From Clostridiales bacterium (GTDB lineage Bacteria; Bacillota; Clostridia; Oscillospirales; Oscillospiraceae), in the NCBI GenBank assembly GCA_029098065.1, contig JAQXNP010000085.1:1-10984 (forward strand): 10,984 bases of DNA, given 5' to 3'. The notes beneath the pieces were generated by a model. The model was not told the origin of the DNA. It did no database searches and saw only the letters and a program-made list of their open reading frames with translations. This document shows positions 10,066 to 10,984 of the stretch, one piece after another (the stretch's first letter is position 1; each line of letters starts with the position of its first letter). The translations under genes and the position numbers were made by a program.

Positions 10066-10227
10066 TTACAGATCCTCCAGATCGGCGGCGGGAAGATCAT
10101 TTTCCAGATTGTCCCGGGCCAGGTCGGTGTCCAGCTCGGGGTAGATATCCGATGGGATGGGTCTCTCTCCCGTCAGCTGATCCCGGACGGACTTGGGATG
10201 GCTTCCTTTTCGGTGTTCGGGTTTCAC
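10066..10227 (-). CDS. Small acidic-tailed hypothetical protein (53 residues)
   Basis: On the minus strand a GTG start at 10227 is preceded by AAGGAGGGA at normal spacing and opens a 53-codon frame ending in TAA at 10066. The product is soluble and highly charged: a basic N-terminus (MKPEHRKGSHPKSVRDQ), a middle with GERPIPSDIYPELD, and an acidic C-terminus (DLARDNLENDLPAADLEDL) with repeated D-L and E-D-L units. No membrane segment, Cys or known motif is seen and I do not recognise the family. Support comes from the strong ribosome binding site and the fact that the shared bidirectional terminator lies 11 bases past its stop. A minus-strand promoter was not convincingly found (a weak CATACT lies at 10248-10253). 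Function unknown. Confidence 0.65.
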   Translation of the reverse strand: MKPEHRKGSHPKSVRDQLTGERPIPSDIYPELDTDLARDNLENDLPAADLEDL

Positions 10228-10395: not shown

Positions 10396-10424
10396 TTGAC
10401 ACCAAAGCGCCGGCGTGTTAATAT
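10396..10424 (+). promoter_or_regulatory. Sigma-A promoter of the T-box/cysE transcript
   Basis: A perfect TTGACA (10396-10401), a 17-base spacer and TAATAT (10419-10424) preceded by TGT as an extended -10. Transcription should begin near 10431, just before the T-box Stem I. Confidence 0.85.
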
Positions 10425-10447
10425 ACTAAAAATATCAGGAATGCAGC

Positions 10448-10664
10448 GCGAAGAACGGAATGAGTAGCGAACAGGCAGACCCGGGCAGAGAGGGACCGTC
10501 ACCGGCTGAAAGCGGACCCACGAAAGACCTGTTTGTGAATTGCGTCCGGGAGCGTTGGGGGCAATGCCCCACGGTTCGGCCCCGTTACCGGCTGTTGAGT
10601 GAGAAACGAGAGTGGAACCGCGTGACAACGCCTCTCATGCCCTGTGGGCATGGGAGGCTTTCTT
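10448..10664 (+). promoter_or_regulatory. T-box riboswitch, cysteine-specific (specifier UGC)
   Basis: A tRNA-sensing leader. Stem I has the AGTA loop-E strand (10463-10466) and an upper stem AACAGG/CCTGTT (10470-10475 with 10528-10533). It also has a distal AGAGAGGG...GGCTGAAAGC pattern and a lower stem CGGA/TCCG. The 3' side of the specifier loop reads GAA-T-TGC-G (10537-10544), giving specifier UGC (Cys). A downstream hairpin, TGGGG/CCCCA (10556-10571), follows. The T-box proper is AGAGTGGAACCGCG (10609-10622). Its antiterminator is complete: GAGAG (10608-10612), 7-base bulge TGGAACC, GCG, loop TGACAA, CGC, CTCTC (10632-10636). The UGGA in the bulge pairs with acceptor UCCA, matching the U73 discriminator of tRNA-Cys. 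Uncharged tRNA-Cys would therefore switch on the downstream cysE transcript. Confidence 0.95.
10630..10664 (+). terminator. T-box terminator
   Basis: GCCTCTCATGCCC (10630-10642) pairs with GGGCATGGGAGGC (10646-10658), 13 bp with one T-G pair and loop TGT, followed by TTTCTT. Its 5' arm overlaps the antiterminator strand CGCCTCTC, so the two structures are mutually exclusive. Confidence 0.93.
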
Positions 10665-10684
10665 GATTTGGAGGGGAGATAGCC

Positions 10685-10792
10685 GTGGCAGAGGGTATGA
10701 CGCTTTGCCCCTGCTGTGTTGTCGGCGCTGTGAATCAAACGCCGATTTCCGCAGACATCAGGAGGGACTTTTATTTTGACACGCTTAGGTGA
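10685..10792 (+). CDS. Candidate cysteine-rich leader peptide (35 codons) overlapping the start of cysE
   Basis: After the T-box terminator a near-ideal ribosome binding site, GGAGGGGAG (10670-10678), sits 6 bases before a GTG at 10685. The frame runs 35 codons to TGA at 10790-10792. Codons 8-11 are TGC CCC TGC TGT (Cys-Pro-Cys-Cys), and an internal ATG lies at codon 5. The frame differs from cysE and overlaps its first 17 bases, so ribosomes finishing the leader stop 14 bases past the cysE start. The Cys tract right behind a cysteine T-box suggests a translational attenuator sensing Cys-tRNA supply, like other amino-acid-rich leader peptides. No domain or signal peptide is seen, and the peptide itself need have no function. 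It could instead be a chance frame; the strong, well-spaced ribosome binding site argues against that. Confidence 0.6.
   Translation: MAEGMTLCPCCVVGAVNQTPISADIRRDFYFDTLR
10708..10766 (+). promoter_or_regulatory. Possible hairpin masking the cysE ribosome binding site
   Basis: CCCCTG (10708-10713), which lies within the leader's Cys codons, can pair with CAGG-A-GG (10759-10765, one bulged A), the cysE ribosome binding site. TGT (10715-10717) with ACA (10755-10757) extends the stem past one mismatch. An inner stem TCGGCG (10722-10727)/CGCCGA (10740-10745) caps it. A ribosome stalled on the Cys codons would cover the masking strand and free the site. The outer stem is modest and untested. Confidence 0.4.
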
Positions 10793-10984
10793 GACCCTGC
10801 GGGCCTATCAGGCCCGGGATCCGGCGGCCCGGAGCCGTCTGGAGATATTTTTGCTTTATCCCGGTGTGCACGCCGTTTTGTTTCATCGGGTGAGCCACTG
10901 GCTCTGGACCCATCATCTGCGGTTCCTGGCCCGGCTCAATTCCCAGCTGGCGCGGCATCTTACCGGTATTGAGATCCACCCCGG
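10776..10984 (+). CDS. cysE: Serine O-acetyltransferase, N-terminal part (runs off the window)
   Basis: The first 69 codons of an EpsC/CysE-type enzyme, which acetylates L-serine with acetyl-CoA to O-acetylserine, the precursor that cysteine synthase converts to cysteine. The TTG start has GGAGGG 9 bases upstream and gives MTRLGETLRAYQARDPAARS, aligned with the usual family start. The segments LEIFLLYPGVHAVLFHRVSHWLW and ARLNSQLARHLTGIEIHP are diagnostic of the short (EpsC) class and lead into the left-handed beta-helix acetyltransferase domain, which lies beyond the window. The catalytic His and Asp are in the missing part. The T-box upstream links its expression to cysteine starvation; cysS or cysK may follow, as in other Firmicutes, but cannot be seen. 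The weak TTG and the overlapping leader ORF suggest translational control. Confidence 0.93.
   Translation, partial: MTRLGETLRAYQARDPAARSRLEIFLLYPGVHAVLFHRVSHWLWTHHLRFLARLNSQLARHLTGIEIHP

Follow-up and report, generated by a model that had tools for sequence, protein, structure and literature searches.

To our knowledge, Trp in B. subtilis is the only described case of one tRNA being sensed in tandem, with a T-box followed by a leader peptide; there the rtpLP-rtpA arrangement was reportedly described by Chen and Yanofsky in 2003. Cys-codon leader uORFs are likewise said to have been described by Canestrari in 2020. In the B. subtilis at operon, as given in excerpts of the two sources, a Trp T-box and the rtpLP leader lie upstream of rtpA, which encodes anti-TRAP, full translation of rtpLP prevents translation of rtpA (PMC2311275), and anti-TRAP responds to uncharged tRNA-Trp at the level of its transcription as well as its translation (PMC4027176). 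In Firmicutes, T-boxes of Cys specificity precede cysKE, cysS or cysES, those of Clostridium perfringens use a TGC specifier, and the excerpted source mentions no leader ORF between T-box and gene (PMC2940859). Cys-codon leaders appear, again in source excerpts, before cysS of Rhodobacterales (uORFC-8-2; PMC8632094), as poly-Cys sORFs of mycobacteria (PMC9094748) and as Cys leaders of actinobacterial cys operons (PMC1262725), and these excerpts mention no T-box in front of them. Firmicute leaders that replace T-boxes are known from hisS-type genes in the excerpt of PMC2965389.

The window, by which we mean the whole stretch of 10,984 nt analysed here, holds in this order a promoter-like site, a T-box, a terminator, a leader Shine-Dalgarno sequence (SD), a leader with Cys codons, and cysE (Table 1). 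As far as the excerpts on rtpLP-rtpA go, the two loci share their order: a T-box comes first, a short ORF with three codons specifying the T-box's amino acid comes next, and the regulated gene follows. They differ in that Cys takes the place of Trp, the gene encodes a biosynthetic enzyme here and a regulator there, and the organisms are distant. The T-box shares its class, TGC specifier and pathway with the Firmicute Cys T-boxes (PMC2940859, in excerpt). The known Cys-codon leaders, as excerpted, resemble the window in that a cysteine gene is preceded by a short ORF in which Cys codons cluster, but unlike them the window has a T-box in front, and the window is free of terminator-like sites from leader start to cysE, whereas a terminator is the proposed target of uORFC-8-2 in the excerpt.

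An earlier note on this DNA, made from the window alone, had known of no T-box and cysteine leader peptide in series. That claim of novelty was too strong, since a T-box followed by a leader of the same amino acid is known for Trp, but it stands for Cys insofar as we found no report of a Cys T-box and a Cys leader in series in one open-access collection of papers, from which most subscription papers are absent. Our preferred reading, to which we give a probability of roughly one half (about 0.52), is that the leader acts as a serial sensor of charged tRNA-Cys behind a T-box that senses uncharged tRNA-Cys, and that it occludes cysE when it is fully read.

The T-box and leader ORF of the window

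Table 1. Positions of the features of the T-box, leader and cysE locus in the window
Feature	Position	Strand	Basis or remark
Promoter-like site TTGACA-17-TAATAT, 5' of the T-box	10396..10424	+	Consensus match only
T-box leader (RF00230), Cys specificity	10442..10638	+	59.9 bits, E 1.7e-12
Specifier codon TGC (Cys), context GAA-U-UGC-G	10541..10543	+	By-eye reading
T-box core TGGAACCGCG	10613-10622	+	
Intrinsic terminator hairpin with T-rich tail	10630..10665	+	13-pair stem 10630-10658
Leader SD GGAGGGG	10670..10676	+	GGAGG ends 10 nt before GTG
Cys leader ORF, 35 codons, GTG start	10685..10792	+	ORF call and comparative support
Cys-Pro-Cys-Cys codons 8-11 (TGC CCC TGC TGT), proposed stall site	10706..10717	+	
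Possible hairpin GTCGGCG / CGCCGAT between Cys codons and cysE SD	10721..10746	+	Fold centroid
cysE SD AGGAGGG, within the leader ORF	10760..10766	+	Sequence reading
cysE (serine O-acetyltransferase), TTG start, truncated by contig end	10776..10984	+	

The RF00230 covariance model matches in the window over the full length of the model (1-219), with a score that lies under the Rfam gathering score of 93. Together with the core, the terminator and a TGC specifier that fits the pathway of the downstream cysE, this match identifies a real T-box despite the sub-gathering score. At the eight further leader loci described below, the T-boxes score 63-70 bits, none of them reaching 93, and they keep GAA-N-TGC-G, with GAAGTGCG at the specifier position. 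Counting the window, the Cys T-boxes of all these loci (L013, L238, L209, L242, L244, L254, L262 and L265 being the others) thus fall at 60-70 bits and would be missed at the gathering cut-off. A consensus search found one promoter-like site of this kind against 0.4 expected.

The cysE fragment, cut at the contig end in an assembly that is 90% complete, matches TIGR01172 (E 5.2e-19, 68.9 bits over the 69 aa present) below the whole-protein cut-off of 210.65, and the first 200 aa of a relative from G007 (L004) score above the cut-offs of both TIGR01172 and NF041874. A 53-aa frame (MKPEHRKGSHPKSVRDQL...) lies on the minus strand at 10066-10227, between pgsA and the T-box, and has no Pfam match at E 0.01.

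Between the terminator and cysE lies an SD-led short ORF with clustered Cys codons. Its peptide begins MAEGMTLCPCCVV... and reads MAEGMTLCPCCVVGAVNQTPISADIRRDFYFDTLR over its 35 aa, codons 8, 10 and 11 being Cys and codon 9 Pro, and the ORF overlaps the start of cysE by 17 nt in a different frame. The earlier note had described such a Cys-rich frame between a Cys T-box and cysE, with its Cys-Pro-Cys-Cys tract, its out-of-frame overlap and a specifier naming the same amino acid, and on each of these points our coordinates agree with it. Its wording of an "excellent" ribosome binding site was slightly generous, since the SD is good but the start codon is GTG. We found no terminator-like site between the leader start and the start of cysE, and we therefore rejected a classical transcription attenuator with a leader peptide; two weak terminator-like sites lie further on, inside cysE, at 10829 and 10862.

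The first alternative to be weighed is that the ORF is a chance frame in the spacer and that the T-box alone controls cysE, which we consider unlikely. An SD followed by an ORF with three Cys in four codons arose in only 2 of 3000 dinucleotide shuffles of the window interval, which speaks against chance, and in none of 3000 when the same test was applied to the interval of CE91-St43, a genome of the same genus. In favour of chance, two overlapping frames in the window interval both hold Cys runs: a second frame (TTG start, 38 codons, ...PLLCCRRCES...) also passes when an SD and clustered Cys are asked for, its SD-like stretch sitting within the terminator stem.

Cys-codon leaders in related genomes

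The window T-box has a strong DNA match in 15 of the 16 genomes of its genus, at about E 1e-34 or better (the weakest being 1.4e-34 in G012), with G014 reaching only 0.0025, and cysE is matched at E 1e-10 in 8 of the 16, the window's own included. The core motif is present in 13 of 14 T-box loci from the other genus genomes. Behind these 13 T-boxes stand cysE in three genomes (G008, G004 and G007), a cysS-type gene in eight and another gene in two, the types having been assigned by family search for G009 (cysS) and G003 (XAC2610-related) and by eye for the rest; some genus members have cysE without a T-box. Together, these counts indicate that the Cys T-box is widespread in the genus, with cysE directly behind it in some species only. 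At L112 (G003) and L115 (G005), the same Cys T-box precedes a gene that is neither cysE nor cysS and whose product starts with a hydrophobic, membrane-like stretch; the G003 product matches an XAC2610-related domain and no Pfam model at E 0.01.

For a wider survey, we drew 80 cysE loci from GTDB contigs, Bifidobacterium and Methanobrevibacter being among the sources, and took cysE matches in 132 of 200 genomes of the family, 56 of 64 of a second genus and 150 of 245 of the order, in addition to those of the window's genus. Upstream regions were read in 53 of the 56 matched second-genus genomes (all but G414, G415 and G439), 110 of the 132 matched family genomes and 55 of 133 matched genomes from the order's other families. 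With the duplicates L009 and L010 dropped and identical 120-base upstreams collapsed, 305 loci gave 280 distinct upstreams, 199 of which have a T-box core within 330 nt; since nothing beyond this 9-base core was required, the 199 may include T-boxes of other specificity and sequences that are no T-boxes. Of the 199 intervals, 142 carry GAA-N-TGC-R within the 200 nt that precede the core. In 149 intervals no more than 115 nt separate the core from the cysE start; there the terminator and SD fill most of the space and leave no room for a leader. The remaining 50 are longer, 22 of them from the second genus, and the median of all 199 is 88 nt.

We then searched the 199 intervals for an SD word of at least 5, an ORF of at least 8 codons and at least 3 Cys in 6 codons. 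Four intervals hold such a frame, namely those of the window, CE91-St43 (L013), G406 (L238) and G434 (L265), while none was found on the 199 reverse strands or in any of eight dinucleotide-shuffled sets. Since these thresholds were chosen after the window had been seen, the window itself should be left aside, which gives a fair count of 3 of 198. With looser demands (ATG or GTG start, SD of at least 5, at least 10 codons, start at least 26 nt upstream of cysE), leader-like ORFs turn up in 14 of the 199, some without Cys. Regardless of Cys content, SD-led ORFs occur about as often behind T-boxes (38/169) as before T-box-less cysE (8/35), so it is the Cys content of a few that stands out and not the presence of an ORF. 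The Cys leader is rare among relatives, and these figures also lend something to the view that the window ORF arose by chance, as 195 of the 199 intervals, most of the 50 longer ones included, lack a Cys-dense frame and SD-led ORFs are not enriched. By eye, the long 244-nt interval between T-box and cysE at L074 resembles an insertion, and it has no Cys leader.

In CE91-St43, an AAGGAGG SD and an ATG precede the leader KCPCHCCRPILNRNPA (MKCPCHCCRPILNRNPA) in a long interval of 189 nt from core to cysE match; the leader stops 45 nt upstream of cysE. Aligned with each other, the window and CE91-St43 intervals give a local score of 29, against 19.6 for shuffles (sd 3.6; 5 of 300 as high), which is weak evidence for a shared origin of the two intervals. 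Given this weak alignment and a one-base gap that it places after Cys-Pro-Cys, homology of the two frames is uncertain, and that the window frame is not clearly homologous even to its congener's again favours chance. The G406 leader, with SD AAAAGGAGG and a TTG start, has the peptide MHLPFPRLRHSRRSAPRCPGCCSSRPQ (CPGCC) and ends before cysE. We also considered CPCxCCRP as the mark of a leader family and rejected it: searched as a DNA pattern in 400 family genomes, it gave 16 places, spread over 15 of them, where a reversed control gave 3; CE91-St43 alone lies behind a T-box, and the other 15 places have no core on the matched strand and look like off-frames of coding sequence.

Six genomes of the second genus (G141, G434, G435, G436, G442 and G444; loci L209, L242, L244, L254, L262 and L265) share one homologous 59-codon leader. 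Its SD, AGGAGGTGC, is invariant, its start is ATG in five and GTG in one, and its stop lies 47 nt inside cysE in all six. Cys14 is present in 6/6, Cys12 in 5/6 and Cys2 in three, G442 having lost one Cys of Cys-Arg-Cys, and five of the six fall short of 3 Cys in 6 codons, G434 being the one that passes. In the first 116 nt, all six genomes keep frame 0 open while frames 1 and 2 are open in none and in one, respectively; neutral simulations along the leaders' own tree, starting from open leaders, kept frame 0 open in all six in 26 of 4000 runs. The kept blocks are the SD, the Cys-Arg-Cys region (with CGATGT invariant), CATACCATAT and the cysE SD. The invariant CATACCATAT lies at leader offset about +72 to +81 in all six loci.

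Between codons 2 and 40, pairwise differences at codon positions 1 to 3 number 239, 243 and 208, and synonymous differences make up 35 of 409 differing codon pairs in the leader frame compared to 75/410 and 49/406 in the other frames. Since the positions vary alike and few differences are synonymous, the peptide does not appear to be under ordinary selection, and it is only the open frame and the kept blocks that argue for translation. The codons vary as would be expected if the sequence of the leader peptide were of no consequence.

A wide spread of this leader was rejected, as a sequence model built on it (R1) finds those six only. Among the 64 second-genus genomes, R1 gives 6 places at E < 1e-30 and one weak place each in G141, G432 and G441 (E 0.004-0.009); among 400 family genomes, it gives the G141 place and 24 weak ones (E 0.0046-0.05). 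The second G141 place resembles a coding start, at a locus without a T-box core. R1 matches none of the window, CE91-St43 and G406 leaders and so gives no sign that they are homologous to the six-genome leader.

Against a chance origin of the window ORF, then, stand like leaders in CE91-St43, G406 and the six-genome clade, together with a frame that this clade has kept. The earlier note had proposed control in series by a T-box and a Cys leader, an arrangement that recurs in other genomes above controls but is not general. It had also expected relatives to retain the frame, its SD and its Cys codons amid drift elsewhere, as happens in one clade for most of the other codons, and had counted an absent interval as evidence to the contrary. 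The latter applies to the majority of relatives, whose intervals are short, and 41 of the 50 longer intervals hold none of the nine Cys leaders.

How the leader may act on cysE

Under the reading that we prefer, the T-box would terminate most transcripts when tRNA-Cys is charged, and on those that escape, the leader would be read to its end by ribosomes that cross the SD and start of cysE and thereby block it. When charged tRNA-Cys is scarce, the T-box would antiterminate and ribosomes would pause at Cys-Pro-Cys-Cys, leaving the cysE SD free. From the anatomy of the locus, we infer that the leader is translated in this organism, that ribosomes stall on it, that it occludes cysE and that control runs in this direction. 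The Cys codons of the window end 42 nt upstream of the cysE SD and, for an assumed footprint, a ribosome at the last Cys codon would end about 30 nt before the SD in the window and 68 nt before it in the six genomes. Since the leader spans the SD and start of cysE in the window and in the six genomes, a ribosome finishing the leader would cross that region, a geometry that permits the proposed block. The ORF extends past the cysE start in seven of the nine leader loci; because the leaders of CE91-St43 and G406 stop before cysE, occlusion by overlap cannot act likewise there and another route would be needed.

We also considered that a stall might unmask the cysE SD, and rejected this. When the RNA was folded with modelled ribosome footprints of assumed size, no consistent effect emerged: the unpaired value of the cysE SD went from 0.24 to 0.35 on a modelled stall in the window and stayed nearly flat or moved the opposite way at other loci. 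Since folding showed no switch at the cysE SD, occlusion is favoured over unmasking.

RNAalifold predicts one local 7-bp hairpin in the six genomes, just upstream of the cysE SD and excluding it. Its share of paired cells (92.9%) and its covariation score (0.324) are each reached in 7 of 500 shuffles, and two of its pairs have changed on both sides, as 101 of 500 shuffles also do. A similar, unproven hairpin is possible in the window (Table 1), where shuffled sequences fold about as well as the region overall (z -0.55). Because a hairpin precedes the cysE SD, positive coupling remains a candidate: the leader would be translated and would promote cysE translation, through reinitiation at the TTG or through melting of the hairpin. 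The leader stops a short way inside cysE (17 nt in the window, 47 nt in the six genomes), and the hairpin kept in the six genomes would be opened by a passing ribosome. With such coupling, Cys starvation would lower cysE translation per transcript, making the leader a damper and not a second on-switch. A starvation damper on a biosynthetic gene would oppose the T-box, however, and cysE has its own SD (GGAGG) in 9/9 loci, outside the hairpin, so that we regard positive coupling as improbable, marginally more so than a chance frame.

Lastly, Cys-Pro-Cys motifs and the listing of P0001, a 59-aa sequence from one contig that retains the Cys of the G141 leader and is 92% identical to it, as a predicted protein could suggest a small metal- or thiol-binding protein made with CysE, but this is very improbable, as neither the 35-aa window leader nor the 59-aa leader has an NCBIfam match at E 0.1 or a Pfam match at E 1, amino acids in the six-genome clade drift as freely as third positions with few Cys left, and the leaders of the window, CE91-St43, G406 and that clade are unlike in length and sequence.

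Evolution and meaning of the tandem arrangement

A recA tree is compatible, weakly (47/59), with a single origin of the window and CE91-St43 leaders. A single leader origin in the genus was nevertheless set aside, as the T-box tree opposes it: under a midpoint root, CE91-St43 and the leader-less G007 form a group (98/92) that lies within the clade containing the window (95/96). This nesting of G007 requires one loss or two gains. With the second-genus leaders considered as well, the pattern suggests that leaders have repeatedly been gained or lost on a stable T-box. We tentatively propose, at somewhat less than even odds, that this is a second case of tandem tRNA sensing, recurring and independently evolved and here for Cys. 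The leader would have been added to an existing T-box on at least two occasions within one bacterial family, with a non-conserved peptide of which only the Cys codons, SD and frame are kept.

In such a tandem, a biosynthetic gene would be controlled by both the uncharged and the charged forms of the same tRNA. Annotation can easily overlook the arrangement, because leaders of this size may be skipped or labelled hypothetical proteins and because their T-boxes also fall under the Rfam cut-off. A Cys case that is recurring and labile in a family with an otherwise ordinary T-box would show that the second layer is an evolvable add-on, and the natural pairs of related T-boxes with and without a leader behind them would allow one to gauge what that second layer buys.
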